Shown: piece by piece, positions 1 to 57,273 of the stretch
Numbering within the stretch: position 1 is the stretch's first letter
Layout: each line of letters begins with the position of its first letter
Assembly (NCBI RefSeq): GCF_001577265.1
Contig: NZ_CP014517.1
Span: 1,851,001 to 1,915,000, forward strand
Length of the DNA: 64,000 nt
Source: Variovorax sp. PAMC 28711
GTDB lineage: Bacteria; Pseudomonadota; Gammaproteobacteria; Burkholderiales; Burkholderiaceae_C
Reading direction: 5' to 3'
Notes under the pieces: model-generated
What the model saw: only the letters and a program-made list of their open reading frames with translations
Databases searched by the model: none
Told to the model about the DNA's origin: nothing
Program-made: the position numbers and the translations under genes

Positions 1-292
1 GGTAGACCATGCCGATCCCGAGCGCGCGCGCGACGATCGGATTGGCGATGTCCTGCTCGCGCCCGTCGATCAGGATGCTGCCCTCCTCCGCGCGCTGGAA
101 GCCGGCCACGCACTTCACCAGCGTGCTCTTGCCCGCGCCGTTCTCGCCGAGCAGCGCGTGCACGGTGCCGGGCTCGACATGCATCGTCACGTTGTCCATC
201 GCGGTGAAGGCGCCGAAACGCTTGGTCAGCTGGTAGGTGTCGAGCGCGAGGGCGCCGGTGCCGGCGGGCAAGGCGCCGATGGGGGTGTTCAT
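1..292 (-). CDS. ABC transporter ATP-binding protein, N-terminal part (runs off the window)
   Basis: This is the first ~97 residues of a nucleotide-binding subunit; the gene continues past base 1. The Walker A motif GENGAGKST is visible around residues 49-57, preceded by the TKRFG-type A-loop region. The GENGAGKST variant is typical of the sugar/nucleoside (CUT2, BMP-associated) ATPases. It is the missing ATPase of the BMP importer whose two permeases and binding protein lie upstream in the same operon (2403-5525). Its ATG overlaps the end of the biuret hydrolase gene by 4 nt, so translation is probably coupled. Substrate is unknown; the enzymes around it suggest biuret or another ureide. Confidence 0.85.
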
Positions 293-987
293 GGTGTGCT
301 GGCTCCAACGGCATCGAGCAGCGCGCTCGATTCGGCATGCGCGCCGAACACGCCGCCCTGCATCGTGATCATCTTCAGCGCGGCGAGGTGGTTGCCGTGG
401 TCGGTCGCGGCCGTGCAGTCCGAGAGCAGCAGGCATTCGAAGCCACGGTCGTTGGCGTCGCGCATGGTGGTGTGCACGCACACGTCGGTGGTGATGCCGG
501 TGAGGATCAGGTTCTCGATGCCGCGCGTGCGAAGGATGAGTTCGAGGTCGGTCGCGTAGAACGAGCCCTTGCCCGGCTTGTCGATGACGACTTCACCGTC
601 GAGTGGCGCCAGTTCGGAGATCAGCTCCCAGCCCGGCTCGCCGCGGATGAGGATGCGGCCGCACGGCCCGTCGTCGCCGATGCCCACGCCGTTGGCGCCG
701 ATCTGGCGCGAGCGCCAGCGCTTGTTGGGCGGCAGGTCGGCCAGATCAGGCCGGTGGCCTTCGCGCGTGTGAATGATGTGGAAGCCCAGAGGCCGCAGCG
801 CCGCGAGCGTGCGCTGGATCGGCGCGATCGGCGCCTGCACCAGCGACAGGTCGTAGCCCATCACGTCGACATAGCCGCCCTGGCCGCAGAAGTCGGTCTG
901 CATGTCGATGACGATGAGCGCGGTGTTCTCGGGGCGCAGGTCGCGGTTGTACGGCCACGCATAGGGTTGGGCGTTGACGGTGGTCAT
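289..987 (-). CDS. biuH: biuret hydrolase (BiuH-like cysteine hydrolase)
   Basis: A 232-aa member of the isochorismatase-like cysteine hydrolase superfamily. It is expected to hydrolyse biuret to allophanate and ammonia in the cytoplasm. The catalytic triad reads as Asp28 (IDMQTDF), Lys137 (IDKPGKGSF) and Cys170 (TTDVCV). Family features recalled from rhizobial BiuH are present almost unchanged, such as [14 protein letters not shown] and GEPGW. It is followed by an ABC ATPase gene with a 4-nt overlap and preceded by the formamidase gene 7 nt away. The allophanate product would be consumed by AtzF at 10528-12225. A ureidoacrylate or N-carbamoylsarcosine amidohydrolase is the main alternative, but the BiuH-like segments make it less likely. 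Confidence 0.82.
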
Positions 988-994
988 GCGGTCG

Positions 995-2059
995 TCACGG
1001 GGCCGTCAGTTCGTCGGGCTCGGGCGGGGCCATGGCCGGAATCTTCGGCACCAGCGGATGCGACTCGGGGCCCTTGTAGGCGCGCACGGGCGCACCGAAG
1101 CCGCAGCTGGTGCCGTCGGTCACCTTCACCTGGTCGCTCCACGGGAGCTTGTAGGTGCCCGACGCCATGTCCTGCATGTAGGTGTACGGAAAGTCCTGCG
1201 CCCCGCCCTTCACCGCCACGTACCCGCGGTGGTAGAGCTGGTAGATGTTGTTCTCCACGCCCCAGCCGGTGCGCGCTTCGCGCACGAGGTCGGGCAGCAG
1301 CTCGCAGGTGATGATCTCGTCGACCCGGCCGCCGCCTTCGACCATCACGGTGCCGTCGAAGCTGCAGAACATGCCCTCGCCCATCGAGTCGAAGGTGCCG
1401 TCGCTGCCGCACATGCACACGCTCGCGGTGTAGGCCAGGTTGCAGAAGGCGTTGGCCTGGTTGGTGATCTTCCAGGCGTGGCGGATGGGTGCGGTGTATC
1501 CCGCTGTGCGGAGGATGATCTCGGCGCCCTTGTACGCCGCCTCGCGCGCCATCTCGGGCAGCATGCCGTCGTGACAGATGATCAGCGCGAGCTTGCTGCC
1601 GTTGGGCCCGTCGCACACCGGCACGCCGAGGTTGCCCGGCTCCCACGGCTCGACCGGCACCCACGGATGCATCTTGCGGTAGTACAGGCGGATGGCGCCC
1701 ATGTCGTCGATGATCAATCCGCTGTTGTACGGGTTGCCATCAGGGTTGGCTTCCATGATCGAGAAGCAGCCCCAGATGGTGTTGTCGATGCAGGCCTTGC
1801 GGAAGGCCGCGACCTCGGGCCCGTCGAGCGTGCACATGATCTCGGGCGAGGTGTCCATCGACAGGCCGTGCAGCGAATACTCCGGGAACACGACGAGGTC
1901 CATCGTGCCCTGGTTGCGCCGCGCCTTGGCGACGAGTTCGACGATGCGCGCCGTCTGCGCCGCCAGTTCTTCGGATGTGCGCACCACCGGCAACTGGCAT
2001 TGCACAAGGCCGATGACGACGCCGTTTTCCGATTTGTTCAGTCCACCGAATCCACTCAT
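995..2059 (-). CDS. formamidase / aliphatic amidase of the nitrilase superfamily
   Basis: A 354-aa nitrilase-fold amidase resembling AmiF-type formamidases, which release formate and ammonia from formamide. The expected triad is visible: Glu60 (FPEYS), Lys129 (YRKMHPW) and Cys162 (IICHDGM). Length fits the AmiF/AmiE group (about 335-350 aa). The start chosen is the ATG at 2059 because AAGGAG lies at good spacing just upstream; an in-frame start at 2251 would read through a palindromic repeat. The gene sits between the BMP permeases and biuH, separated from the permeases by a 343-bp gap with two repeats. The true substrate in this cluster could be another short amide; formamide is the family default. 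Confidence 0.82.
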
Positions 2060-2402: not shown

Positions 2403-3323
2403 TCACCTCGTGGATGAAAGCTCGCCCGGGCTGCCGATGGCGACACTGCCCGGCTTGCAGGTGAACACCAGAATGACCAGCGTGAGCACGTAGGGCACCG
2501 TGTTGAACAGGTGATAGCCCCAGCCGACGCCGATCGACTGCAGCGCCGGGCCCAACGCGCCGGCGCCGCCGAACAGGAAGGCCGCGCCCACGCAGCGCAG
2601 CGGGCTCCAGCGCGCGAAGATCACCAGCGCCACCGCGATCAGGCCCTGGCCGCTGGAGATGCCCTCGTTCCAGCTGCCCGGATAGAACAGCGTGAGCGAT
2701 GCGCCGCCCAGCCCCGCGATGAAGCCGCCCGCCGTCGTGGCCGCGATGCGGATGCCCGACACCGAGTAGCCGAGCGCCCGCGTCGCGTTGGCCGAATCGC
2801 CCGCCATGCGCACCAGCAGTCCGGCGCGTGTGTGTGCGAAGCCCCAGTACAGCAGCACGGCGAGCACCAGGCCGAGGGGCACCAGCGCATTGAGCTGCAG
2901 CGCCGAGCGCACCACCGGGTTGTCGCTCCAGAAGCCCAGCGCAATCGCCGGGATCTGCGGCGCCTGCGGCTGGATCAGCGGCTTGCCCAGGTAGAAGGCC
3001 AGGCCGGTTCCGAACAGCATCAGCGCGATGCCGGTGGCCACGTCGTTCACCCGGTCCAGCGAGCACAGCAGGCCGTGCAGCAGCGCGAGCGCGGCGCCGG
3101 CGGTCGCGCCGATCAGCACGCCGAGCCAGGCCGAGTCGGTGAGGTAGGCGCCGCCGAAGGCCGCCATGGCCGACAGCACCAGCACGCCTTCGAGGCCGAG
3201 GTTGATGCGGCCCGACTTCTCGGTGAGGCATTCGCCCAGGCTCACGAAGAGGAACGGTGCACCCACGCGCAAGGCGCCGCCGACGATGCCCGCCACCAGT
3301 GCGATCCACTGATCGGCGGTCAT
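2403..3323 (-). CDS. BMP-type ABC transporter, permease subunit 2
   Basis: A 306-aa very hydrophobic inner-membrane permease of the branched-chain/BMP (BPD_transp_2) family, with about eight to nine predicted membrane segments. A segment resembling NLGLEGVLVLSA near residue 40 is typical of the nucleoside/BMP importer permeases. Its ATG overlaps the stop of the partner permease (3320-4399) by 4 nt, showing co-translation. With that permease, the binding protein at 4410 and the ATPase at the window edge it forms one importer. The substrate is probably a ureide or purine-like compound, inferred only from context. Confidence 0.85.
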   Translation of the reverse strand: MTADQWIALVAGIVGGALRVGAPFLFVSLGECLTEKSGRINLGLEGVLVLSAMAAFGGAYLTDSAWLGVLIGATAGAALALLHGLLCSLDRVNDVATGIALMLFGTGLAFYLGKPLIQPQAPQIPAIALGFWSDNPVVRSALQLNALVPLGLVLAVLLYWGFAHTRAGLLVRMAGDSANATRALGYSVSGIRIAATTAGGFIAGLGGASLTLFYPGSWNEGISSGQGLIAVALVIFARWSPLRCVGAAFLFGGAGALGPALQSIGVGWGYHLFNTVPYVLTLVILVFTCKPGSVAIGSPGELSSTR

Positions 3324-4399
3324 GCGCGCTCCTTCACCAGCTTGGGTTGCGCGGCCTTGGGCATGCGGTTCCTGAGCAGCGTCTTCCAGTCGACCATGCG
3401 CAGGCCCTCGCTCGCGAGGATCAGCACGAAGGCGATGCCCTGCAGCACCAGCACCGATGCGTCAGGCAGGCCGAGCCGCCGCTGCAGCAGGCTGCCGGCC
3501 GCGCCGAAACCGCCGAACAGAATGGCAACGGGAATGATCGCGATGGGGTTGTGCCGCGCGATGAAGGACACCAGGATGCCCGCGTAGCCATAGCCCGCGA
3601 TGATCGAGGCGTTGGCGTTGGTGTGCACCGCCGCCACCTCGACCGCGCCGGCCACGCCGGCGCAGGCACCGCCCACACCGCAGGCCGCGAGAATGAGTCG
3701 CGTGGCCGGCAGGCCGACCAGCTGCGCGGTGCGGGGGTTGCCGCCCACCACGCGCACCGAGAAGCCGGAAGCCGTCACGCGCAGCCAGAGGCCCAGGCCC
3801 ACGCAGGCCACGACCCCGATGGCCAGGCCCCAGTGAATGTCCGAGCCGGCGATGCCGTGGATCAGCAGTCCCTCGGGCAGCGAATAGGTCGACGGCTTGT
3901 TGAGGCTGGCCGGGTCGCGCAACGGGCCTTCGACCAAGTGCTTGAAGATGCCGATGGCGATGTAGGCGAGCAGCAGGCTGCTGATGGTCTCGTTGATGCC
4001 GCGGTACTGGCGCAGCCAGCCGGCCAGCATGATCCAGAGGCCGCCGGCGATCGCACCTGCGAGGCAGATCGCGACCGTGCCCGCCACGTTGGCCGGCAGC
4101 GGCAATGCATAGGGCAGCGCCGCTGCGGCCAGCCCGCCGAGCACCACGGCACCCTCGCCGCCGATGATCACCAGGCCGGCGCGCGCCGGAATGGCCACGC
4201 ACAGCGCCGTGAGCATGAGCGGCGCCGCGCGCTGCAGCGTGTTCTGCCACGAGAACCAGTCGCCGAAGGCGCCCTTGAAGAGCGTGACCCACACGTCCAC
4301 CGGGCTCACCCCGGCGAACCAGACGAGCACCCCGAACACCAGCAGTGCCGCCGCGATGGCGAAGGCCGGCAAGGCGATTTCCTTCAGCGCGCTGCGCAT
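3320..4399 (-). CDS. BMP-type ABC transporter, permease subunit 1
   Basis: A 359-aa integral membrane permease, partner of the protein encoded at 2403-3323. It starts with a membrane segment at about residues 10-32. It carries the loop GGEGAVVLGG near residue 80 that is characteristic of YufP/NupB-like permeases, and a conserved NETISSLLL stretch near residue 138. It follows the binding-protein gene by 10 nt and overlaps the next permease by 4 nt. The role is import across the inner membrane, powered by the ATPase at 1-292. Confidence 0.85.
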   Translation of the reverse strand: MRSALKEIALPAFAIAAALLVFGVLVWFAGVSPVDVWVTLFKGAFGDWFSWQNTLQRAAPLMLTALCVAIPARAGLVIIGGEGAVVLGGLAAAALPYALPLPANVAGTVAICLAGAIAGGLWIMLAGWLRQYRGINETISSLLLAYIAIGIFKHLVEGPLRDPASLNKPSTYSLPEGLLIHGIAGSDIHWGLAIGVVACVGLGLWLRVTASGFSVRVVGGNPRTAQLVGLPATRLILAACGVGGACAGVAGAVEVAAVHTNANASIIAGYGYAGILVSFIARHNPIAIIPVAILFGGFGAAGSLLQRRLGLPDASVLVLQGIAFVLILASEGLRMVDWKTLLRNRMPKAAQPKLVKERA

Positions 4400-4409
4400 G
4401 GTCGTGCGA

Positions 4410-5525
4410 TCAGATGCTGCCGTTGACGCCTTCGACCAGGTAGTTCATCTTCTCGAGCTCGATGTCCGTCTGCTTGAAGGCCTTGCCCGAGGCGACGACG
4501 TCCTTGCCCTTGTTGTCCTTGAGCGGACCCTTGAAGATGTCGAAGCTGCCCGCGACCATCTGGGCCTTGATGCCATCGGCCTGCTTCTTCGCGGCATCGG
4601 TCACGGCCGGGCCGTAGGCCGACATCTTCACGTAGCCTTCCTTGAGGCCGCCGCGCAGGAAGTTGGGGTGTGGCTTGCCGGCCTGGGCGGCTTCGATCGC
4701 CGTCTTGTACGCGGTGAGCCAGTTCCATTCGGCGCCCGTCAGGTAGGCCTGCGGCGCCAGCTTGGCCTGGCTCGCGTGGTAGCCGCAGACCATCTTGCCG
4801 CGCTTGGCGGCCGTCTCGACCACGACCTTGGGTCCGTCGACGTGCATCGTGAACACGTCGCAGCCCTGGTCGGCCAGGCTGTTGGTGGCCTCGGCTTCCT
4901 TCACGGGCATCGACCACTCGCCCGTGAAGATCACGCTGCAGGTGATGCCGGGCTTGACCGAGCGCGCGCCGAGCGTGAAGGCGTTGATGTTGCGCAGTAC
5001 CTGCGGGATCGGCTTGGCCGCGACAAAGGCGATCTTGTTGCTCTTCGTCATGTGGGCGGCGATCACGCCGTTCAAGTACTGGCACTCGTCGATGTAGCCG
5101 AAGTAGCTGCCGACGTTCTTGGGCATGCTTTCGGTCCAGAGGCCGCCGCAGTGCGAGAAGCGCACGTCCGGGTGCTTCGGCGCGACGGCCAGGATGTGCG
5201 GATCGAAGTAGCCGTAGGACGTGGGGAACAGCAGCCTGACGCCGTCCTGCGCGATCATGCCGGTCATGGTCTTCTGCACGGCTGCGGTCTCGGGCACGTT
5301 CTCTTCCTCGACCACCTTGACCCCAGGCATCTTCTTGATCTCGGCGGCGGCCTGCGCCTGCGCCTGGTTGTAGCCGTAGTCGTCGCGTGGGCCGACGTAG
5401 ATGACGCCGACGGTCAGCGGCTTGGCCTGTGCGCTGGCCAATGCGCTCCAGCTGCCCAGCGTGCCGGCGGCACCGAGGGCGGCGATGGATTTGAGGGAAT
5501 CGCGACGGTTGACTTGACTCTTCAT
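4410..5525 (-). CDS. BMP-family substrate-binding protein (ABC importer)
   Basis: A 371-aa periplasmic binding protein of the basic membrane protein (PnrA/BMP) family. It has an N-terminal export signal of about 33 residues with NRRDSLKSIAALGAAG, ending ALASAQA. The mature start LTVGVIYVGPRDDYGYNQ is the usual BMP opening. The first gene of the BMP importer set, it has its own promoter module immediately upstream: a sigma-54-like element at 5580-5595 and a palindrome at 5560-5575. Family members bind nucleosides, purines or related ureides; which one is bound here cannot be read from the sequence. The start is supported by GGAGAG shortly upstream of the ATG. Confidence 0.87.
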   Translation of the reverse strand: MKSQVNRRDSLKSIAALGAAGTLGSWSALASAQAKPLTVGVIYVGPRDDYGYNQAQAQAAAEIKKMPGVKVVEEENVPETAAVQKTMTGMIAQDGVRLLFPTSYGYFDPHILAVAPKHPDVRFSHCGGLWTESMPKNVGSYFGYIDECQYLNGVIAAHMTKSNKIAFVAAKPIPQVLRNINAFTLGARSVKPGITCSVIFTGEWSMPVKEAEATNSLADQGCDVFTMHVDGPKVVVETAAKRGKMVCGYHASQAKLAPQAYLTGAEWNWLTAYKTAIEAAQAGKPHPNFLRGGLKEGYVKMSAYGPAVTDAAKKQADGIKAQMVAGSFDIFKGPLKDNKGKDVVASGKAFKQTDIELEKMNYLVEGVNGSI

Positions 5526-5559: not shown

Positions 5560-5575
5560 ATCTTGGATACAAGAT
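5560..5575. promoter_or_regulatory. 16-bp palindromic operator upstream of the BMP binding-protein gene
   Basis: On the minus strand this reads ATCTTGTATCCAAGAT, with perfect 6-bp arms. It starts exactly 5 nt downstream of the sigma-54-like -12 element at 5581-5582 and so spans the expected transcription start. A near-identical palindrome with the same spacing precedes atzF (12236-12251). The CTTGTA..CAAG type resembles sites of GntR-family (FCD) regulators. No such regulator gene is in the window, so the bound protein is unknown. Confidence 0.65.
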
Positions 5576-5579
5576 GGAA

Positions 5580-5595
5580 TGCACAAATCAGGCCA
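5580..5595 (-). promoter_or_regulatory. sigma-54-like promoter for the BMP transporter genes
   Basis: Minus-strand sequence TGGCCTGATTTGTGCA has GG and GC separated by exactly 10 nt, matching the -24/-12 layout of RpoN promoters (consensus TGGCAC-N5-TTGCA). It overlaps the stop codon end of atzH. It is weaker than the atzF element in the -24 part, but the identical 5-nt distance to the same palindrome supports it. Confidence 0.6.
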
Positions 5596-5968
5596 GCAGG
5601 CTCACGTGCGCAGACACCACTCGCCAGCCTTCGGGCGTGCGCATCCAGGTCTGGCTCTGGCGGCCGGTCCGATCGCCGCCTTCGCGCAGGAATTCGCAGT
5701 TGGCGGTGGCGAAGTCCTCGCCATAGGTGGTGAGCACGACGCGCAGCAACCTGCGCTGGAGGCCCTGAGACGGGCGGCTCGCCCGGAACGCCTGGATCGC
5801 TTCGGCGCCGTAGAGGTTTTCCGTCGCGCCGTAGCGCAGGGTGTGCGGGCTGTTCCAGAACAGTTCGTCGAGCACGTCGACCTTGTTGTGGACCAGCGCG
5901 TCTTCGTAGCGGGCGAAGGCGTCTTCGACTTCGGCGAGGACAGTGGGGATGTTGATTTCTGGGGTCAT
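5588..5968 (-). CDS. atzH: AtzH-like 1,3-dicarboxyurea decarboxylase (HpxZ/DUF3225 family)
   Basis: A 126-aa SnoaL/NTF2-fold protein of the AtzH/HpxZ (DUF3225) family. Family features include [14 protein letters not shown] near residue 12, LDELFW near residue 33, [12 protein letters not shown] near residue 42, and a C-terminal [19 protein letters not shown]. In cyanuric acid catabolism AtzH decarboxylates 1,3-dicarboxyurea to allophanate; in Klebsiella the relative HpxZ belongs to oxalurate catabolism. The neighbours AtzE/AtzG, BiuH and AtzF favour the s-triazine/biuret role. It lies downstream of atzE across a 202-bp gap holding repeat copy C. Full length for the family. Confidence 0.8.
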
Positions 5969-6170: not shown

Positions 6171-7598
6171 TCACAGCGCAGCCACCGGCGAATGAACCAC
6201 GTTTGCTGCTTCGAGCGCCGCCGCGACGCGCAGCACCAGGTCTTCACGCCAAGGCGCTGCGATGACCTGCACGCCGATCGGCAACTTCGCATGCGCGCCC
6301 CACACCGGGACGGCGCACACCGGCAGGCCGATGCACGAAATGGGTTGCGTGAGCAGCCCCATGTTGGGTCGTACCGGCAGGCGCTGCCCATTGAGTTCGA
6401 ACCACTCGGCGCCGATGGGCGTGGCGGCCGAAGGCGTGGCGGCGGCCAGCAGGATGTCGTAGCGGTCGAACACGCGGGCTACGGCCTGTGCGTAGGCCAG
6501 CCGCACACGTTGGGCGCGCGCGATCCACGCGGCGGGCAGGAGCGCACCGGCGAGAAAGCGATCGCGCGACAACGGCTCGAAGTCGTGCGGGCGACGGCGG
6601 AGGTCGTGCAGGTGCAGCGCGGCGCCTTCCGAATTGGTGATGAGGAAGGCGGCTGCGCGGCCGGCCTCGACCATCGGCAGTTCGACCGTCGCGCTCGCAC
6701 CGAGCGCGTCGGCCACCCGGTCGACGGCGGCCAGCGCCTCGGGTTGCGCATGCGCGCGGAAGTAGCCACCGAGCACGCCGATGCGAAGGCCCTGCGTGCC
6801 GCGTCCGAGCAGTGGCGTCACCAACTCGGCGGAACGTTGTGCGCAACCTGGATCGCGCAGACCCATCGTGCCTTCCGGCCCCTGCATCGCGTCGTAGGCC
6901 AGGGCGAGGTCGCGCGCCGAACGTGCGAACGGGCCGAGGTGGTCGAGGCTCGACACGAAGGGATAGCTGCCGGTGCGCGGCAGGCGGCCGAAGGTCGGCT
7001 TGAGGCCGAACACGCCGCACAGCGATGCGGGCACGCGGATCGATCCGTTGGTGTCGGAGCCGAGCGTGAGCGGCACCTGCCCTGCGGCCACTGCCGCCGC
7101 CGAACCGCCCGACGATCCTCCGGCCAGGCGCGTCAGGTCGTGCGGGTTGTGCGCGGCGCCGACGTGGCTGTTTTCCGTGGTGAAGCCGTAGGCGTATTCA
7201 TCCATGTTGAGTGCGCCGACCAGGACGGCGCCTGCGCTCTCGAGGCGCCGCACCAGCGCGGCATCGCTGCGCGCGGGCGCGCCGTCGCGTTCGATCTTCG
7301 AGCCGGCCAGCGTTTGCAGGCCAGCGATGTCGAACAGGTTCTTGACAGCGAACGGCACGCCAAGCAAGGGCAATGCACGGGTGCGCTCGGCGTTGACCGA
7401 GGCAAGCGATGCATCGACCTGCGCGGCGCGGCGCAGAGCCCGCGCGGTCACGACGTCGGTGAAGGCGTTGACGCGGTCGTTGGTGGCACCGATGCGGTCG
7501 AGGCTGGCCTGCACCAGCGACACCGCACTCACCGCGTTCGAGCGCACCGCGACGGCCATGCCGGCCGCGTCGCCGCCGAGCAGATCGGCCGGCGTCAT
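6171..7598 (-). CDS. atzE: AtzE amidase, catalytic subunit of 1-carboxybiuret hydrolase
   Basis: A 475-aa amidase-signature enzyme. The Ser-cisSer-Lys triad is placed at Lys86 (FAVKNLFD), Ser162 (AGGSSGGSAA) and Ser186 (SDTNGSIR), with the usual 24-residue gap between the serines. AtzE of Pseudomonas ADP is about 457 aa and needs the small subunit AtzG, whose gene lies directly upstream and overlaps this start in an ATGA tetranucleotide (7595-7598). The expected reaction is deamination of 1-carboxybiuret to 1,3-dicarboxyurea, handed to AtzH. HpxY of oxalurate catabolism is a close relative and cannot be excluded. The start at 7598 is preferred to an in-frame start at 7643 because of this coupling. 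Confidence 0.85.
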   Translation of the reverse strand: MTPADLLGGDAAGMAVAVRSNAVSAVSLVQASLDRIGATNDRVNAFTDVVTARALRRAAQVDASLASVNAERTRALPLLGVPFAVKNLFDIAGLQTLAGSKIERDGAPARSDAALVRRLESAGAVLVGALNMDEYAYGFTTENSHVGAAHNPHDLTRLAGGSSGGSAAAVAAGQVPLTLGSDTNGSIRVPASLCGVFGLKPTFGRLPRTGSYPFVSSLDHLGPFARSARDLALAYDAMQGPEGTMGLRDPGCAQRSAELVTPLLGRGTQGLRIGVLGGYFRAHAQPEALAAVDRVADALGASATVELPMVEAGRAAAFLITNSEGAALHLHDLRRRPHDFEPLSRDRFLAGALLPAAWIARAQRVRLAYAQAVARVFDRYDILLAAATPSAATPIGAEWFELNGQRLPVRPNMGLLTQPISCIGLPVCAVPVWGAHAKLPIGVQVIAAPWREDLVLRVAAALEAANVVHSPVAAL

Positions 7599-7801
7599 GC
7601 TTCCTTCTCCGACGGGCTGACGGGGACGAAGGTCACGGCGCATTCATCGTGTGGCGCGAGCGGCACGGCATCGATCGTTGCAGCGAAGTGGGCTGCGAGC
7701 GTGAAGTAGCCCAGCACGCCGGCACGGTGCGCCGGCCAGATGCGCAGCCCGAGCGCGGCGGCGGCTGCGTCGACGTAGGTTTCGACCTGGACAGGGGTCA
7801 T
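7595..7801 (-). CDS. atzG: AtzG-like small subunit (DUF4089)
   Basis: A 68-aa protein of the AtzG/DUF4089 type, a GatC-like partner that stabilises the amidase AtzE. A short helical opening VETYVDAAAAALGL is typical of the family. ATG at 7801 is chosen because GGAGG lies about 8 nt upstream; the GTG at 7810 overlaps that ribosome-binding site. The gene begins 5 nt after the ABC ATPase gene and ends overlapping atzE by 4 nt, giving near 1:1 coupled translation of the two subunits. Confidence 0.8.
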   Translation of the reverse strand: MTPVQVETYVDAAAAALGLRIWPAHRAGVLGYFTLAAHFAATIDAVPLAPHDECAVTFVPVSPSEKEA

Positions 7802-7806
7802 GGCGT

Positions 7807-8628
7807 TCACCTCCGCACTTCCCGCTGGAAGATTTCCAGACTGCGTTTCTTCATCGCGACGAAGCTCGGCGCGCTCAACGTTTCGAGAGTCCGCGGTCGG
7901 GCTTCACCGTAGCGAAGGATCTCGGCCACCTTGGTCGGCCGCTTGGTCAGCAGCAGCACCTCGTCGGCCAGGTAGACGGCTTCTTCGAGGTCGTGCGACA
8001 CCAGCAGCATCGTGGTGCCGGTCTGCATGAACACCTCCTGCAGCTTCTCGCGGATGAAGAGGGTCATCTCGAAGTCGAGCGCGGAAAACGGTTCGTCGAG
8101 AAAAAGCACCTCGGGGTTCGGCGCCAGCGCCCGCATGATCGATGCCGTCTGCTGCTGGCCGCCCGAGAGCTCGTAGGGGAAGCGATTCAGGTCGAACTTG
8201 ACATCGAACGACGCGACCAGCTCGGCCATGCGACGGTCGACCTCGGCTTTCGACCGGCCTTCCAGCTTGAGCGGGTAGGCGATGTTGTCGATGGTGCGCA
8301 TCCACGGGAACATCGCCTCGCGGTAGTTCTGGAACACGTAGCCGATCTTGGTGTCCTTGAGCGACTTGCCGTCGAACAGAATCTCCCCCGAATCGATCGG
8401 CACCAGCCCCGCGATCATGTTGATCAGCGTCGACTTGCCGCAACCGTTCGGCCCGAACACCGAGACGATCTTGTGCTTCGGGATGTCGAGGTCGAAGTTC
8501 TCGTACAGCGGCCAGCCCGCGAAGTACTTGGTGAGGCCGCGGATGGTGATGTGCGTGCCGGCCGGGCCGGGCTGGAACATGGGGGCGGGCACGTCGGCGT
8601 ACACCGGGCCGTTGAGGACTGCAGACAT
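7807..8628 (-). CDS. NitT/TauT-type ABC transporter ATP-binding protein
   Basis: A 273-aa ATPase of the SsuB/TauB/NrtD group. Walker A GPNGCGKST lies at residues 59-67, a Q-loop region at about 105, the signature LSGGQQQ at about 158, and Walker B LFLDEPFSALD at about 180. It powers the importer formed with the permease at 8634 and the binding protein at 9479. Gene spacing is 5 nt from the permease gene and 5 nt to atzG, so it belongs to the atzF-led operon. Relatives import nitrate, sulfonates, cyanate or pyrimidines; here a ureide or triazine-derived compound is likely from context. Confidence 0.87.
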   Translation of the reverse strand: MSAVLNGPVYADVPAPMFQPGPAGTHITIRGLTKYFAGWPLYENFDLDIPKHKIVSVFGPNGCGKSTLINMIAGLVPIDSGEILFDGKSLKDTKIGYVFQNYREAMFPWMRTIDNIAYPLKLEGRSKAEVDRRMAELVASFDVKFDLNRFPYELSGGQQQTASIMRALAPNPEVLFLDEPFSALDFEMTLFIREKLQEVFMQTGTTMLLVSHDLEEAVYLADEVLLLTKRPTKVAEILRYGEARPRTLETLSAPSFVAMKKRSLEIFQREVRR

Positions 8629-8633
8629 GGCGA

Positions 8634-9473
8634 TTACCTTCCAGACCAGTGAACGATCTTGCGTTCGGCAACGAGGAACAGGATGTTGAGCACATAGCCG
8701 AGCGCGCCAGCGGCCAGGATCGAGGCGTACATGTCCTTGACGTTCATCACCTGCTGCGAGTTGATGATGCGATGACCCAAGCCGGCGTCCGAGCCGATGA
8801 ACATCTCGGCGACGATCACGATCACCAGCGCCATCGACACGGCAGAGCGAAGCCCCACGAACGAGGGCTGCAGGCTCTCCCAGATCAGCACGTCCTTGAA
8901 GATCTGCCAGCGCGAGGCGCCCATCACGCGTGCCGCCATCACGCGTTGCTTGCGCGCATTGATGACGCCGTAGGCGCTGTTGAACACCACGATCAGGAAG
9001 GCCCCGAAGGCGGCGATGGCGATCTTGTTGACGTCAGACACGCCGAAGATCATCAGAAACAACGGGATCAACGCGGACGACGGTGTCGAGCGGAAAAAGT
9101 CGATCAGGAACTCGACGCTGCGGTAGGCCTTCTCGTTGCTGCCGAGCAGCACCCCCAGCGGCATGCCGACCACGGCAGCGATCAGGAAAGCCTGCAGCGT
9201 GCGCCACACGGTCACGGCGAAGTCGGTGAGCAGCGTTCCGCCGGCCAGCCCGGTGAGCAGCGAGACCACCGTGTCGCCCGGCAGCGGCAGCAGGATGGCC
9301 TTGATGAAGCCCAGCCGCACCACCAGGTCCCAGACGATGAACAGCACGACGGGGCCGATGAACGGCAAGGCCTTGAGCCAGGGCGACGGCTTGGGGGCGG
9401 CTGCCGTGGCGCCGTGGGCAGGCGCCTTCCAGGGTGTGCCCGCATCGGGGCCGACGGAGGTGGCTTCGGCCAT
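8634..9473 (-). CDS. NitT/TauT-type ABC transporter permease
   Basis: A 279-aa inner-membrane permease of the SsuC/TauC group with about six membrane segments. The cytoplasmic EAA-type loop ARVMGASRWQIFKDVLIWE, which contacts the ATPase, is near residue 180. A Pro/Ala-rich N-terminal tail of about 30 residues precedes the first membrane segment. It sits between the binding-protein and ATPase genes with gaps of 5 nt on each side. Confidence 0.87.
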   Translation of the reverse strand: MAEATSVGPDAGTPWKAPAHGATAAAPKPSPWLKALPFIGPVVLFIVWDLVVRLGFIKAILLPLPGDTVVSLLTGLAGGTLLTDFAVTVWRTLQAFLIAAVVGMPLGVLLGSNEKAYRSVEFLIDFFRSTPSSALIPLFLMIFGVSDVNKIAIAAFGAFLIVVFNSAYGVINARKQRVMAARVMGASRWQIFKDVLIWESLQPSFVGLRSAVSMALVIVIVAEMFIGSDAGLGHRIINSQQVMNVKDMYASILAAGALGYVLNILFLVAERKIVHWSGR

Positions 9474-9478
9474 GGCGC

Positions 9479-10480
9479 TCAGCCCTTGTAGAGCATCGAA
9501 TCGACCATCAGGCGCGACGAGAAGATGCCCTTGTCGGAGAACAGGTCGAAGAACTTCTGGAAGTACGCCACGTCCGCCGGCGTGAACTCGTTGTACATCG
9601 TGTAGGCCGCGAGCGGCACTTCGCTCGTGAGGGCGCCTTCGATGGCGGTGTAGCCCTTCAGGTACTGGCGGGCCTCGTTGGGCTTGCTGCGCACATAGGC
9701 CACGCCCTTGGCGTAGGCCGCGATGAACTTCTTCGACTCGGCCGGGTTCGCCTTGATGAAGGCGCCTGTGAGCGAAGCCGATCCGCCGAACCAGGGGGCC
9801 ATCGCATCGCCGAGGATGTAGCGGGAGATCACGCCTGTTTCGAGCGTGCGCGTCGTCTTGGACAGACGGCCGATGGTGCCCGTGGGCTCGAGCGTGTAGC
9901 AGCCGTCGACCTGACCGGCCGCCAGGGCGGCCACGTGCTGGCCGATCGGCAATTCGATGACGGTGGCGCCGGTCGCGCCGCCGCGTTCGAGCACCGTCTT
10001 GGCCAGCGTCACGTTCTGGATGCCGGGACCCGAAGCCACTCGCTTGCCCTTGAGGTCGGCGATGGTCTTGGCCGTGCTGGCGATGGGCACCAGCACTTCG
10101 TCGAGCACATTTTTTTCGTTGCTGGGGTTCGAGCAGAAGATCTTGAAGCTGCCGGGTTGGGCGATTTCGCCGATGGCGATGTTGGCCGAACCGGTGCCGT
10201 TGGCGCTGCCGTCGCAGCGTCCGGACAGCATGCCTTCCATGATCTGCTGGGCGCCCGCGTAGCGCTGGACCTCGACGTTGAGGCCCGCCTCCTTGAAGTA
10301 GCCGAGCTCGACGGCCGCGTAGAACGGCAGCCCGGCCGCGATCGGCCAGTAGCCGACTCGAATCGCGGGACCGCCTTGCGCACGCACGATCGCCGGTGCG
10401 GCCAGCACGCCGAAACCGGCGGCACCGGCTTGCAGCAACTTGCGGCGCGATGGGCCGGTGGAGAGAGGCTTGTTTGTCAT
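9479..10480 (-). CDS. NitT/TauT-type ABC transporter substrate-binding protein
   Basis: A 333-aa periplasmic binding protein of the SsuA/NrtA-like group. The first ~35 residues form an export signal with RRKLLQAGAAGFGVLAAP, a twin-arginine-like motif, cleaved near IVRAQG. The mature part opens with IRVGYWPIAAGLPFYAA, the usual start of this family. The ATG at 10480 is preferred to a far upstream in-frame start because it opens exactly at the signal peptide. The gene is 47 nt downstream of atzF. Confidence 0.87.
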   Translation of the reverse strand: MTNKPLSTGPSRRKLLQAGAAGFGVLAAPAIVRAQGGPAIRVGYWPIAAGLPFYAAVELGYFKEAGLNVEVQRYAGAQQIMEGMLSGRCDGSANGTGSANIAIGEIAQPGSFKIFCSNPSNEKNVLDEVLVPIASTAKTIADLKGKRVASGPGIQNVTLAKTVLERGGATGATVIELPIGQHVAALAAGQVDGCYTLEPTGTIGRLSKTTRTLETGVISRYILGDAMAPWFGGSASLTGAFIKANPAESKKFIAAYAKGVAYVRSKPNEARQYLKGYTAIEGALTSEVPLAAYTMYNEFTPADVAYFQKFFDLFSDKGIFSSRLMVDSMLYKG

Positions 10481-10527: not shown

Positions 10528-12225
10528 TCAGGCCGCAGGCGCTTTTTGTCTCGAGGCGATGTAGTGGCGCCAGCCGCCGTGGCGCGTGATGTCTTGCGCG
10601 CCGGCGAGCGCGATCGACTCGCAGACGAAGCCCTGCACGCTGCTGCCGTCGGCCAGCGTCAAGGTGCCGATGCCGAGCGGCGCCGGAATGAGCGCAACGA
10701 AGGAGCCGTAGGCGGTGGCGGGCATCTCCCATACCTCGACGATCAGCGCGGCGCCCTCGCCGGCGGGCACGCGCACCATCCCGGGCTTGGGGGGCACCGT
10801 GCCGGGCAAGGCATAGAGGCGGTACAGCGGTGCCGTTGTGGTTTCGCGCAGCAGCGTGGCACCGCGCTCGACGAGCTGGCCGTTGAGCGGCATCCCCGAC
10901 AAATGGGCGCCGACGACGGCCACGCGCACGATCTCCAATGAGGGCGCGGCGCCGAACACGGGCGCCTGCGCAGGCAACGGCTCGCCCGTGACGCCCATCG
11001 TGAGGCCGCTCGCATGGTGGTAACGCTGGCCGAGCTCGGCCAGTTGCAGGTCGCTGCCGCAAACGCCGACCAGCGTGATGCCGAAAGGCAGCCCGTCGTC
11101 GCGCAGGCTGCTCGGCACCGAGAGCGCGGCGTAATCGAGCAGGTTGACGAAATTGGTGTACGCGCCGAGGTTGCGGTTGAGCGCCACCGGGTCGGCCTGC
11201 ATCGCCTCGATCGTGTAGTGCGTGGGCGCGGTCGGCACCAGCAGGAGGTCGATGTCGGCCCACATCGGTGCAACCTTTTGTGCAAGCGTGCGCAGCCTGA
11301 CTTGCGCATCCACGAGGTCGGCCGCGCTGTAGGTGCGGCCCTTGGCGAGGATGCTGCGCACCGGCTCGATGACCTGGTCTTCATGGCCGTCGAAGAATTC
11401 GCGCACCGCGGCGTAGCGCTCGGCGACGAGCGCACTGTCGTAGAGCAACGCGGCGGCGTCGGCGAGTGGCGCGTAGTCGATCGCGACCGCGGTGCCGCCC
11501 ATCGCCTCGAGCCGCGCGATGGCGTCGGCGAAGGCGGACTCGGCCGCGCTGTCGCCGAAGAAGGCCAGTGCGGATGGCACGCCGAAACGAAAGCGCGCCG
11601 GGTACGGCGTTTGCAGCAGCGGGAGTTCGCGGCCGTAGGGGTCGAGCGGGTCGAAGGCCGCGGCGGCCTTCAACACCTGCAAGGCCGTGGCCACCGTGCG
11701 CGCGAAGATCGACACGCAATCGACGCTCTGGGCAGCCGGCACCACGCCGCGCGCGCTGAGCAGGCCGCGCGAGGGCTTGAGGCCGACGATGTTGTTGAGG
11801 CCGGCCGGCACGCGGCCGGAGCCCGCGGTGTCGGTGCCGAGCGAAAAATCCACCTGGCCGGTCGCCACCACGTAGGCCGAGCCGGAGCTCGATCCGCCCG
11901 ACACGTAGCGCGCGTCGAAGGCGTTGGGCACGGCGCCGTAGGGCGACCGCGTGCCGTTGAGGCCGCAGGCGAACTGGTCGAGGTTGGTCTTGCCGACCAG
12001 CGTCGCACCGGCATCGAGCAGGCGCTGCACCACCTGGGCGTTGGCGTCGGGCGTGCGCGAGAAGAACGCGCAGCCCGCCGTGGTCGGCACGCCGGCTGCA
12101 TCGATGTTGTCCTTGGCGGCGAAGCGCAGGCCGGCCAGCGGGCCTTCGGTGGCACCGGCGATCGGCTGCGCCAGCTTGGTGATCCATGCCGCGCCGGCCG
12201 TGTCGTTGAGTTTTTGCACCATCAT
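10528..12225 (-). CDS. atzF: allophanate hydrolase (AtzF type), N-terminally short
   Basis: A 565-aa cytoplasmic enzyme converting allophanate to CO2 and ammonia, the last step of biuret and cyanuric acid catabolism. The amidase-signature domain spans about residues 10-430 with triad Lys38 (AAKDNID), Ser112 (SGGSSSGS) and Ser136 (DTAGSGR). The C-terminal AtzF-specific domain spans about 445-560 (VAVVGAHLSGMPLNGQL, EVWEMP). AtzF of Pseudomonas ADP is about 605 aa; here about 35 N-terminal residues before AAWITKL are missing. It is the first gene of the minus-strand cluster, with a sigma-54-like promoter at 12256-12271 and a palindrome ending 10 nt before the ATG. Confidence 0.88.
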   Translation of the reverse strand: MMVQKLNDTAGAAWITKLAQPIAGATEGPLAGLRFAAKDNIDAAGVPTTAGCAFFSRTPDANAQVVQRLLDAGATLVGKTNLDQFACGLNGTRSPYGAVPNAFDARYVSGGSSSGSAYVVATGQVDFSLGTDTAGSGRVPAGLNNIVGLKPSRGLLSARGVVPAAQSVDCVSIFARTVATALQVLKAAAAFDPLDPYGRELPLLQTPYPARFRFGVPSALAFFGDSAAESAFADAIARLEAMGGTAVAIDYAPLADAAALLYDSALVAERYAAVREFFDGHEDQVIEPVRSILAKGRTYSAADLVDAQVRLRTLAQKVAPMWADIDLLLVPTAPTHYTIEAMQADPVALNRNLGAYTNFVNLLDYAALSVPSSLRDDGLPFGITLVGVCGSDLQLAELGQRYHHASGLTMGVTGEPLPAQAPVFGAAPSLEIVRVAVVGAHLSGMPLNGQLVERGATLLRETTTAPLYRLYALPGTVPPKPGMVRVPAGEGAALIVEVWEMPATAYGSFVALIPAPLGIGTLTLADGSSVQGFVCESIALAGAQDITRHGGWRHYIASRQKAPAA

Positions 12226-12235
12226 CAAGCATCCT

Positions 12236-12251
12236 GTCTTGTGTACAAGAT
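12236..12251. promoter_or_regulatory. 16-bp palindromic operator upstream of atzF
   Basis: Minus-strand ATCTTGTACACAAGAC, with arms pairing over TCTTGT/ACAAGA. It begins 5 nt downstream of the sigma-54-like -12 GC (12257-12258), exactly as at 5560-5575. It therefore covers the predicted transcription start and ends 10 nt before the atzF ATG. A repressor bound here would block initiation; a GntR-type protein is the best guess. Confidence 0.68.
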
Positions 12252-12255
12252 CTGA

Positions 12256-12271
12256 TGCAAGCAGTGTGCCA
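12256..12271 (-). promoter_or_regulatory. sigma-54-like promoter of the atzF operon
   Basis: Minus-strand TGGCACACTGCTTGCA matches the RpoN consensus TGGCAC-N5-TTGCA at every consensus position. GG and GC are separated by 10 nt. RpoN promoters need an activator such as NtrC, which fits nitrogen-limited expression of a ureide pathway. No clear NtrC site was seen in the 12272-12365 stretch. Confidence 0.75.
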
Positions 12272-12365: not shown

Positions 12366-13220
12366 ATGATTTCACTCCCCGCCCCCGGCCGCCTGCAGCG
12401 CCGCACGTTGCTCGGCCTCTCGGCCGGTTTGATCGCCGCCGCTGCGCTGCCGGCCTGCGCGGGCGCGCGCGCCTCATCGAGCCGCTGGCTGCAGATCGAG
12501 GTGCAGGACCGCGACAGTGGCGCCACGCTCCCCGTCTACAGCGCGAACGGCCAGTGGTACGTGGCGGGCCGGCCGGGCGCGCGCTACGGCGTGACGCTGC
12601 GCAATCTGCGGCGCGAGCGGGTGCTGGTGGTGATGTCGGTCGACGGCGTGAACGTGCTGACCGGCCAGACCGCCGGCACCGGGCAGGACGGCTACGTGCT
12701 CGGCCCGCTGGAGAGCGGACAGATCGCCGGCTGGCGCAAGAACGACCGGGAGATCGCGGCGTTCGAGTTCACGGCGCCATCGGATTCATACGCTGTGCGC
12801 ACGGGTCGCTCGCTCGATGTCGGCGTGATCGGCGTGGCGGTCTTTCGGGAGCGTCAGCCCGAACCGCTGCCGGCGCCGCCGATGGTGCAATCCGAATCCA
12901 GCGCCGCCGGCAACGTGGCGCAGGACACGGCCAGGGCGGCGCCGTCGCCTGCGCCTTCGTCCAGCGCACGCCGCGAGCGCGCAACGGCCGAACAGAAGCT
13001 GGGTACCGGCCACGGCCAGCGCGAGACTTCCGTCGTCGGCCGGACCGCCTTCGAGCGCGCGAGCAGCCGCCCCGACGAGGTGATGGCGCTGCGCTACGAC
13101 AGCCGTGCGAACCTGATCGCCCAGGGCGTCATTCCCGCGGCCTCGCCTTCGTCGCCGCGCCCGCGCCCGTTTCCGCAATCCCCGCAAGCCGGCTTCGTGC
13201 CCGACCCACCCGCCTATTGA
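12366..13220 (+). CDS. Exported hypothetical protein with twin-arginine-like signal
   Basis: A 284-aa protein of unknown function. The N-terminus has RRTLLGLSAGLIAAAALPAC, a Tat-like signal that also offers a lipobox-type Cys (LPAC) near residue 34, so it may be a lipoprotein. The region at about residues 45-160 looks like a compact beta-rich domain (WLQIEVQDRDSG, YGVTLRN, VDGVNVLTG). The C-terminal ~120 residues are Pro/Ser/Ala-rich and probably disordered. It is divergent from atzF across a 140-bp gap. The start at 12366 is supported by GGAGA upstream. Confidence 0.7.
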   Translation: MISLPAPGRLQRRTLLGLSAGLIAAAALPACAGARASSSRWLQIEVQDRDSGATLPVYSANGQWYVAGRPGARYGVTLRNLRRERVLVVMSVDGVNVLTGQTAGTGQDGYVLGPLESGQIAGWRKNDREIAAFEFTAPSDSYAVRTGRSLDVGVIGVAVFRERQPEPLPAPPMVQSESSAAGNVAQDTARAAPSPAPSSSARRERATAEQKLGTGHGQRETSVVGRTAFERASSRPDEVMALRYDSRANLIAQGVIPAASPSSPRPRPFPQSPQAGFVPDPPAY

Positions 13221-54211: not shown

Positions 54212-55729
54212 TTAGCGGTTGTACGCGGTCTCGCCGTGCGACGAGATGTCGAGGCCTTCGCGCTCTTCTTCTTCCGTCACGCGAAGACCGATCGTCAGGT
54301 CGGCGATCTTGAAGGCGACGAAGGAAACCACACCCGACCACACGATGGTGAGGAGCACAGCCTTCAGCTGGATCCAGACCTGCGGTCCGATCTCGGTGGT
54401 CACGACGGCAGCCGTGACCCAGTCGCCGACGATGCCGGGGCCGCCGAGCGACTGCGTGTTGAACACGCCGGTGAGCAGGGCGCCGACGATACCGCCGACA
54501 CCGTGCACGCCGAACACGTCGAGCGAGTCGTCCGCGCCGAGCAGCTTCTTGAGACCATTGACGCCCCAGAGGCAGGCGAAGCCGGCGACGAAGCCGATCA
54601 CGATCGCGCCCATCAGGCCGACGTTGCCGGCGGCCGGGGTGATCGCCACGAGGCCGGCGACGGCGCCCGAAGCGGCACCGAGCATCGACGCCTTGCCGCG
54701 AATCAGCGCTTCGCCGATGCACCATGCGAGCACGGCGGCGGCGGTGGCCGAGAAGGTGTTCATGAAGGCGAGCACGGCGCTGGTGCCGGCTTCGAGGGCC
54801 GAACCGGCGTTGAAGCCGAACCAGCCCACCCACAGCAGCGAGGCACCGACCATCGTCAGCGTCAGTGAATGCGGCGTGAAGGCTTCCTTGCCGTAGCCCA
54901 CGCGCTTGCCGATCACGAAAGCACCGACCAGACCGGCGACGGCCGCGTTGATGTGCACCACCGTGCCGCCTGCGAAGTCCAGGGCGCCCATCTGCCAGAT
55001 GTAGCCGGCCTTGGCGTTCATCGCGTCGACCACGTCCTTGCTGGCGTAGGCATCCGGGCCCATCCAGTACCAGACCATGTGCGCGATCGGCGCGTAGCTG
55101 AAGGTGAACCACAGCACCATGAACAGCAGGATGCCGCCGAACTTGGCGCGCTCTGCGAAGGCACCGACGATCAGGCAGCAGGTGATGCCGGCGAAGGTGG
55201 CCTGGAACGCGGCGAACAGCAGTTCGGGGATGTAGACGCCCTTGCTGAAGGTCGCGCCGGGTGCGAACACGCCGGTGGCCGGATCGAAGATCCCCTTCAT
55301 GAAGAGCCGGTCGAAGCCGCCGATGAAGGCATTGCCCTCGGTGAACGCGAGGCTGTAGCCGTAGACCAGCCACAACACGACGATCAGCGAGAACGTGACC
55401 ATCACCTGCATCAGGACCGACAGCATGTTCTTGCTGCGGACCAGGCCGCCGTAGAACAGCGCGAGGCCGGGGATGGTCATCATGATGACCAGCAGCGTCG
55501 ACAGCATCATCCAGCTGGTGTCGCCCTTGTCGAACTTGATCGCGGGTGCAGCGGCTGCGGCATCGGCAGCAGGTGCCGTGGCAGCCGCGGCGGCGGGTGC
55601 CACGGCCGGCGCGGCAGCGGCAGCCGGGGCCGAGGCCTCGGCGGCAGGCGCGGGCGTCTGGGCGAAGCCAGACACGCCGGCAGTGAGCACGCTCAGGCCG
55701 AGCGCGAGGGAGACGAGCAGTTTTTTCAT
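54212..55729 (-). CDS. amtB: Ammonium transporter AmtB
   Basis: A 505-aa ammonium channel with 11 membrane segments in the core. After a signal peptide (about residues 1-24) comes an Ala/Pro-rich spacer to about residue 65, making it longer than E. coli AmtB (428 aa). Pore histidines lie in FTPHSLTLT and FGVHGVGGIVG; ALFYGGLVRSKN opens the channel domain. It works with the adjacent PII protein, which blocks the pore when ammonium is plentiful. Start at 55729 opens the signal peptide; an upstream in-frame start would read through glnK. Confidence 0.94.
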   Translation of the reverse strand: MKKLLVSLALGLSVLTAGVSGFAQTPAPAAEASAPAAAAAPAVAPAAAAATAPAADAAAAAPAIKFDKGDTSWMMLSTLLVIMMTIPGLALFYGGLVRSKNMLSVLMQVMVTFSLIVVLWLVYGYSLAFTEGNAFIGGFDRLFMKGIFDPATGVFAPGATFSKGVYIPELLFAAFQATFAGITCCLIVGAFAERAKFGGILLFMVLWFTFSYAPIAHMVWYWMGPDAYASKDVVDAMNAKAGYIWQMGALDFAGGTVVHINAAVAGLVGAFVIGKRVGYGKEAFTPHSLTLTMVGASLLWVGWFGFNAGSALEAGTSAVLAFMNTFSATAAAVLAWCIGEALIRGKASMLGAASGAVAGLVAITPAAGNVGLMGAIVIGFVAGFACLWGVNGLKKLLGADDSLDVFGVHGVGGIVGALLTGVFNTQSLGGPGIVGDWVTAAVVTTEIGPQVWIQLKAVLLTIVWSGVVSFVAFKIADLTIGLRVTEEEEREGLDISSHGETAYNR

Positions 55730-55757
55730 TTCGGTTGTTCTTTCGTGCCGTGAATGA

Positions 55758-57067
<1,310 letters not shown>

Positions 57068-57115
57068 CGGGAAACTCCTCGAGGGGGTTGAAAATGGGGT
57101 TTGAATCCTGTTCAA

Positions 57116-57131
57116 AGCAGGGAGCGTGCCA
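57116..57131 (-). promoter_or_regulatory. sigma-54-like promoter of the porin-glnK-amtB unit
   Basis: Minus-strand TGGCACGCTCCCTGCT matches TGGCACG-N4-(T/C)TGC, with GG and GC separated by exactly 10 nt. It lies about 50 bp upstream of the porin ATG. RpoN control of amtB operons is the known pattern in proteobacteria. Confidence 0.75.
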
Positions 57132-57256
57132 AAGTCCACAAGCGGCGTGTCGCCAAAATGACCCGCGGCGCGGCGCGCCCTTTAAATAGTTACCTGACTG
57201 TTTCAAGCTGCCGCGGAACTTTGGAAGCCCGGCACGGTGGACCGGCGATTGCGGAA

Positions 57257-57273
57257 TGCACCATCTTGGTGAA
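57257..57273. promoter_or_regulatory. NtrC-like enhancer site
   Basis: TGCACC-N5-GGTGAA, matching the NtrC consensus TGCACC-N5-GGTGCA at 11 of 12 arm positions. It lies about 125-155 bp upstream of the sigma-54 element at 57116-57131, a normal enhancer distance. It also sits 10 bp before the comM start codon. Confidence 0.65.

Follow-up and report, generated by a model that had tools for sequence, protein, structure and literature searches.

The window, which is the whole stretch of 64,000 nucleotides that was analyzed, carries on its minus strand a cluster of amide hydrolase and ABC transporter genes that continues to the left of the window. The genes are given below in the order in which they would be transcribed.

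10528..12222, minus strand: atzF, allophanate hydrolase (PF01425 and PF21986); the start is ATG-GTG at 12222, inside an NtrC-like dyad, or ATG at 12225
9479..10480, minus strand: substrate-binding protein of an NMT1-type ABC transporter
8634..9473, minus strand: ABC permease (BPD_transp_1), labelled TauC
7807..8628, minus strand: ABC ATPase, labelled TauB
7598..7801, minus strand: AtzG-like small subunit (PF13318; 3' end approximate)
6171..7598, minus strand: AtzE-like amidase, start predicted within a longer open frame; the closest solved structure is 6c62, named biuret hydrolase
5588..5968, minus strand: AtzH-like protein (PF11533), start predicted within a longer open frame
4410..5525, minus strand: BMP-type (PnrA-like) substrate-binding protein (PF02608)
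3320..4399, minus strand: BPD_transp_2 permease 1 of the BMP transporter
2403..3323, minus strand: BPD_transp_2 permease 2 of the BMP transporter
995..2056, minus strand: formamidase-like carbon-nitrogen hydrolase, predicted start
289..987, minus strand: BiuH-like biuret hydrolase
Left of the window, minus strand: ABC ATPase, TrtA-like triuret hydrolase and GntR/FCD regulator (regulator at genome positions 1848276-1849025)

The best PDB sequence match of the TrtA-like protein was 6xix (TrtA, PMC7948467), and that of the BiuH-like protein was 6azo, followed by 6xjm, which is named biuret hydrolase. With homologues of TrtA, BiuH and AtzF together, the cluster would by homology serve the scavenging of nitrogen from triuret and biuret. 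The analogy to s-triazine catabolism drawn in an earlier note on this DNA is therefore loose, the enzymes being TrtA-, BiuH-, AtzE/G/H- and AtzF-like. Enzymes of the AtzE/G/H/F type are indeed shared with the atzR-atzDEF system of Pseudomonas sp. ADP, which reportedly has a LysR-type regulator and is said to be under NtrC/RpoN control. Unlike that system, the present cluster has a GntR/FCD regulator, two ABC transporters and TrtA/BiuH, and neither the cyanuric acid hydrolase gene atzD nor the LysR-type AtzR of the s-triazine regulon is among the cluster genes named here. An operon atzDGEHF is named in the abstract of PMC6219798. The same three hydrolases as in our cluster, TrtA, BiuH and AtzF, are encoded in operons of Herbaspirillum sp. 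BH-1 and Rhizobium leguminosarum (PMC7948467). The cluster studied here has a regulator in addition, and the passages of PMC7948467 on the triuret pathway of these organisms describe none.

The GntR/FCD regulator gene is the last of the cluster, 9 nt past the TrtA-like gene. It lies about 2 kb outside the window and hence was beyond the view of the earlier note. Two domains of the encoded protein scored above cut-off, the GntR winged helix (PF00392) and FCD (PF07729), and FCD was the only effector domain found. Its closest named orthologues belong to Variovorax and are 77-87 percent identical. The genome has one rpoN (one Sigma54_DBD match), one ntrC match above the TIGR01818 cut-off and 28 GntR-domain matches, some of them weak.

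Two promoter modules, S1 upstream of atzF and S2 upstream of the BMP gene, precede parts of this cluster.

12256..12271, minus strand: S1, sigma-54 -24/-12 element TGGCACACTGCTTGCA, recognized by scoring and in relatives
12236..12251, minus strand: S1, operator-like palindrome ATCTTGTACACAAGAC, recognized by genome search and in relatives
12249-12238, minus strand: S1, palindrome core CTTGTACACAAG, predicted -4 to +8 with a predicted +1 at 12245
5580..5595, minus strand: S2, sigma-54-like element TGGCCTGATTTGTGCA
5560..5575, minus strand: S2, operator-like palindrome ATCTTGTATCCAAGAT
5573-5562, minus strand: S2, palindrome core CTTGTATCCAAG, predicted +1 at about 5569

Both modules had been proposed in the earlier note and were found where it had put them, on the minus strand at 12271-12236 (atzF) and 5595-5560 (BMP). 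Two details needed correction. The gap between element and palindrome, given as 5 nt, is 4 nt at both sites (12255-12252 and 5579-5576). The 16-bp palindrome is present but imperfect, with 6/8 and 7/8 symmetric base pairs. The two modules share the imperfect palindrome core CTTGTANNCAAG, and relatives mainly keep the 12-bp core CTTG-N4-CAAG and not the whole 16 bp.

We scored the elements with consensus weights that were set by hand for sigma-54 and NtrC sites alike. The S1 sigma-54 element reached 19.7 of 20, the highest score among 127,968 window positions; the S2 element is weak, with a score of 17.0 that is reached by 30 window positions. The mismatch-free sequence ATCTTGTANNCAAGAY occurs at only 2 places in the 4.316-Mb genome, a single contig, both of them in the cluster. 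Looser matches within the window were at chance level, both for the palindrome with up to 2 mismatches (27 versus 19.5 expected) and for sigma-54-like elements (25 versus 21.7 expected). The signal above chance is in the exact palindromes and their conservation, not in the loose matches of the window.

Conservation was assessed at 18 same-genus loci that were fetched by regulator orthology alone, which makes 19 with the window's own genome. Gene order is much alike across these 19 loci, some of which lack an AtzG/AtzE or a formamidase match. All 18 same-genus atzF promoters (own included) have the sigma-54 element and a spacing of exactly 7 between its GC and CTTG, and three of the 18 carry the core variant CTTGTACACATG. 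At the BMP promoter the operator is kept in 12 of the 19 loci and gone in 7, five of which retain the sigma-54-like element; at one locus (L115) the operator is kept and the -24 GG is changed. Several BMP promoters among the Variovorax loci L107, L110, L111, L121, L123, L169 and L170 have a sigma-54-like element and have lost the palindrome. At such promoters the operon would be left to nitrogen control alone.

The composite GGY-N9-GC-N7-CTTGTANNCAAG was present in 69 of 101 genus genomes, compared with one match of the backward pattern. Three of the listed composite matches, in G285, G300 and G375, resemble chance by sequence, and these genomes have cluster-type matches too. In the 37 genomes scanned for both motif and regulator, the composite occurred in 26 of the 32 with a regulator orthologue and in 0 of the 5 without (Fisher P 0.001). 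Among the six genomes with an orthologue and no composite, G307, G314 and G315 have the CTTGTACACATG variant and the atzF promoter of G308 falls outside the stretch, leaving G301 and G327 as the other two exceptions. The regulon of two sites with fixed element order and spacing that the earlier note had argued for is thus borne out by the sequence and conserved in the genus, and the search of related genomes that it had proposed was run and passed.

The same spacing prevails in the wider family. A GC-to-CTTG distance of exactly 7 was seen in 41 of 44 palindromes directly upstream of cluster genes, a set partly picked by spacing 7, and in 26 of 28 when loci fetched by the regulator plus our own are counted. 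Loci L128-L145 were chosen from motif matches and are therefore no independent proof of spacing. At two family loci (L140 and L288) the spacing is 4 in place of 7. In a family scan that allowed gaps of 1-30, 12 of the 31 matches with a CTTGTA core among those listed share one spacing (binomial P 1.5e-10; 4e-9 allowing for 30 spacings), and all 12 stand before atzF or BMP. Of the 12 genomes with these matches, 11 have a regulator orthologue, compared with 4 in a set of 40 that had been selected for lacking a family-scan match. All of these 4 have a sigma-54 element plus an operator variant, one of them at spacing 4; the single motif genome without an orthologue (G131) is an incomplete assembly.

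Of 80 named loci with regulator relatives, the 26 with at least 45 percent identity were analyzed and 54 weaker ones were left out. We inspected the atzF or first-gene promoter of 18 more distant loci by eye, and 15 of them have a sigma-54 element with an CTTGTATAC-like operator 7 to 19 nt behind it, with operators recognized by loose rules and one of the 18 loci (L144) having come from a motif match. Bordetella, Achromobacter, Marinobacter, Pantoea, Pectobacterium and Rosenbergiella are among the genera with the pair. As for the exceptions, L126 and L127 are each without one element and L173 is cut by the contig end. With a range of 7 to 19 farther out, the spacing need not be fixed. In distant genera, too, the regulator gene lies close to atzF.

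The atzF promoter has a third element, which is absent from the observations of the earlier note.

12215..12231, minus strand: S1, NtrC-like dyad TGCTTGATGATGGTGCA (TGC-N11-GCA), predicted position +15 to +31, across the start codon of atzF

A profile of 26 atzF-type promoters showed it as a third conserved block, GGATGC-N7-TGGTGCA. Because the 26 rows were picked for a sigma-54 element 7 nt from the core, the conservation of that element in the profile is partly selection; 15 of the rows come from one genus. Compared with the NtrC consensus GCACCA-N3-TGGTGC (PMC12977541), the dyad fits in its length of 17 bp and in its right half, and most genomes have a degenerate left half. In 27 of 28 S1 sites the best downstream NtrC-like match is placed exactly at +15, mostly with a perfect right half. 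This is the less biased count, none of these loci having been fetched by the dyad (16 by the regulator only, 11 by sigma-54 element plus operator, 1 our own). At the correct distance, TGC is present in 24 and TGGTGC in 25 of 26 S1 rows, and TGC and GCA are both present in 22 of 26. The dyad at +15 to +31 is the sole consistent NtrC-like site at the atzF promoter, where it might either activate or restrain. S2, the BMP promoter of the window itself, showed none by the same downstream scoring.

The three-part pattern of 56 bp was found in 32 of 399 family genomes, representing 23 of 141 genera, with 0 backward matches. Of 31 three-part loci examined, 29 precede atzF and two (L260 and L270) resemble chance. 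An order-wide scan for the pattern gave matches in 2 genomes of a set of 399 that includes only 12 (own included) from the window's family. The dyad searched for on its own, as TGCAC-N7-GTGCA with one mismatch, gave 114 matches per strand of the genome versus 75 for the backward pattern and is mostly background.

Several related arrangements were noted along the way. BMP-type promoters outside the genus (L133:13060, L138:9561 and L139:9705) have a TGCACC-type dyad at about +25, ten bp further downstream than that of atzF. At L143 (operator at 13130) the promoter precedes an NMT1 transporter gene, not atzF, and a downstream dyad TGC-N11-GCG is present.

Two other roles for the dyad were considered and rejected. 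An enhancer of a divergent plus-strand gene is not indicated, as there is no conservation in the 38 columns that precede the sigma-54 element (mean 0.23 bits in 29 aligned loci, which were selected by the three-part pattern). LysR-type regulators recognize a T-N11-A box; the outer T and A of the dyad are 15 apart, not 11.

We further asked whether the dyad might belong to the translation start of atzF, i.e. to the ribosome site, the start codon and preferred codons 2 and 3, or might be a second GntR site and not an NtrC site. This explanation has a real chance of being right, although we would not call it probable. The dyad overlaps the start codon, a well-formed left half is missing from most genomes, and there is a parallel for a second GntR site, since at hutF HutC binds an NtrC-like site that adjoins its operator and extends into the coding region (PMC12977541). 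On the other hand, the TGC conserved in 24 of 26 rows is unnecessary for translation. In 25 of the 26 rows the gene opens with ATG, GTG or TTG and has GTG as its second codon; codon 3 varies (His, Gln, Pro, Arg) while its DNA mostly stays CA, and codons 4 to 11 vary widely. The DNA of the dyad thus seems to be kept beyond apparent coding need. Two comparisons with other promoters also speak against this explanation: a similar dyad lies upstream instead in 10 of 15 distant promoters, and one family locus (L289), with a good dyad both upstream and downstream (TGCACAAAGATGGTGTC), has both halves recognizable.

A dyad of the NtrC type is usually located about 100-150 bp upstream of its promoter, according to the relevant passage of PMC7057263. 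In our own S1, the best dyad between -300 and -40 scored 12.5 (p about 0.8), and no upstream NtrC site stands out in this interval. Upstream scores of 15 or more occurred in 3 of 29 family S1 promoters and in 10 of the 15 distant ones (Fisher P 0.0002); genomes of the family set are related and not independent. Nine of the distant dyads are at -106 to -150 and one is at -276, and none of the 15 distant promoters has a downstream dyad as good. As the 29 family promoters had been selected for the downstream dyad, only the upstream contrast counts. The window itself contains a control promoter.

57257-57273, minus strand: control dyad TTCACCAAGATGGTGCA, canonical NtrC-like, about 142 bp before the sigma-54 element
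57116-57131, minus strand: control sigma-54 element TGGCACGCTCCCTGCT, located before an unnamed open frame at 56165-57139
55758-56138 and 54212-55822, minus strand: P-II gene and ammonium-transporter-like frame of the control run

This promoter, about 1 kb before the P-II gene, has its dyad at about -168 and shows the canonical layout. The simplest reading of the sequence comparison suggests that the NtrC site was moved downstream in the window's family. Going one step further, we tentatively propose, as a possibility that we consider rather doubtful, that in this family (by our assignment Comamonadaceae) the atzF NtrC enhancer was relocated from an ancestral upstream place to +15 to +31, behind the GntR operator and across the start codon, and that the resulting 56-bp promoter may hold three elements in one register that compete or cooperate directly. 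If true, a native sigma-54 promoter would be worked or restrained by NtrC touching the initiation region and not by looping from upstream.

Taken together, we give a probability of roughly 80 percent to the following reading: the triuret/biuret cluster is probably expressed from sigma-54 promoters that are blocked by a substrate-relieved GntR/FCD repressor on the start site and activated by NtrC-P. It builds on the elements, their near-fixed spacing and conservation, the co-occurrence of the regulator, and the presence of rpoN and ntrC. The first promoter would drive atzF and the first transporter; the second would drive the BMP transporter, the formamidase, the hydrolases for biuret and triuret, and also the regulator. 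Sigma-54 polymerase is expected to wait at -24/-12; an FCD dimer bound to CTTG-N4-CAAG (predicted -4 to +8) would stop open-complex formation (melting) or escape. A pathway compound would act as the inducer and free the promoter from the repressor, and NtrC-P would provide the activation that sigma-54 polymerase needs. Expression would therefore require nitrogen limitation AND the inducer, and the regulator, with its gene at the operon end, would repress itself. The earlier note had postulated that a GntR-type operator covers the predicted start site; the sequence supports this, and a GntR/FCD gene closes the same cluster. In Burkholderia cenocepacia an ntrC mutant is reported to grow better on biuret, as stated in the relevant part of PMC5491218, so NtrC need not activate the use of biuret everywhere.

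Instead of a simple repressor, the FCD protein might be an activator or a dual regulator that aids sigma-54 polymerase from the start-site position, given that the operator position alone gives no sign and that the near-rigid spacing of 7 in one family is what direct protein contact might demand. We consider this unlikely. A dimer over -4 to +8 would cover DNA that the polymerase must melt, the spacing varies from 7 to 19 among the distant loci, with two family loci at 4, and at some BMP promoters the sigma-54-like element has stayed where the operator is absent. HutC, moreover, is described as repressing at a sigma-54 promoter (PMC12977541).

Still less likely is that another GntR protein of the genome binds the palindrome and that the neighboring FCD protein is incidental. 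With 28 GntR-domain matches there are other candidates, and related FCD proteins may share operators, but both exact palindromes of the genome (n=2) lie inside this cluster, motif and regulator orthologue co-occur across genomes, and the regulator stays near atzF in distant genera. Chance, or the shared descent of a functionless transposed promoter piece, is very improbable: the two sites share a cluster and might be copies of each other, but the 38 upstream columns are near-random while the elements stay fixed, the three-part pattern is spread over 23 of 141 genera with 0 backward matches in 399 genomes, the composite had one backward match in 101, and the genus and family scans speak against two chance sites.

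A repressor acting on nitrogen-controlled sigma-54 promoters has a direct precedent. The footprint of HutC, a GntR family protein, overlaps the sigma-54 site of Pseudomonas hutU, where HutC responds to urocanate and NtrBC can activate (PMC12977541). Because of this precedent the combination of a GntR protein with sigma-54/NtrC is not unprecedented, and the view that such a combination appears unusual, taken in the earlier note, did not hold. As at hutU, a local GntR-family regulator has its predicted operator near the sigma-54 site of a catabolic operon. Unlike HutC, which has the operator TGTA-N2-TACA and its own GntR subfamily, the regulator studied here has an FCD domain and a predicted CTTG-N4-CAAG operator, which within one family almost invariably follows the GC of the -12 box at a distance of 7 nt. 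In the HutC subfamily the effector domain is of the HutC type, not FCD; here FCD is the sole effector domain and the cores CTTGTACACAAG and CTTGTATCCAAG differ from TGTA-N2-TACA, which places the regulator outside that subfamily.

A second parallel is hutF of P. fluorescens SBW25, where HutC binds both an operator (Phut) and an NtrC-like site (Pntr) in the coding region (PMC12977541). The order of a GntR operator on the promoter and then an NtrC-like palindrome is the same; however, hutF has a sigma-70 promoter and its NtrC-like site is bound by HutC, whereas the promoter here is sigma-54-like and NtrC is a candidate binder of the dyad. By comparative genomics, atzF has been placed under NtrC in Rhizobiales (PMC5343134). 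That regulon belongs to alpha-proteobacteria, and the passage on atzF names no second operator or GntR regulator (PMC5343134). A gntR gene is listed beside trtA, biuH and atzF in nitrifier genomes, in a passage that makes no regulatory claim (PMC12625717). Among the best-matching papers on GntR regulators of biuret or allophanate genes and on sigma-54 enhancers placed just downstream, the passages retrieved did not describe the present arrangement. Judged from sequence comparison, it looks like a well-supported variant of HutC-like control with one unusual feature, the downstream NtrC-like dyad.

What had been a guess about one promoter has become a predicted regulon with a candidate repressor and an AND-gate, occurring in its three-part form in 23 of 141 sampled family genera. 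The orthologous sigma-54-type promoters, with an NtrC-like site either upstream or just downstream, form a natural series, which makes enhancer placement relative to sigma-54 polymerase directly testable. Biuret and triuret are impurities of urea fertilizer, as stated in abstracts on the subject, and the operator is a possible part for a biuret/triuret biosensor once the inducer is known.

Finally, two loci of another genus of the family (L141:14840-14874 and L142:2849-2883) show a sigma-54-like element and, behind it, a pair of CTTGTATNCAAG-type palindromes at a distance of 23 bp. The GntR-type regulator encoded nearby is a different one (about 30 percent identity), and these loci may represent another regulon, unrelated to this one and built on the same plan.
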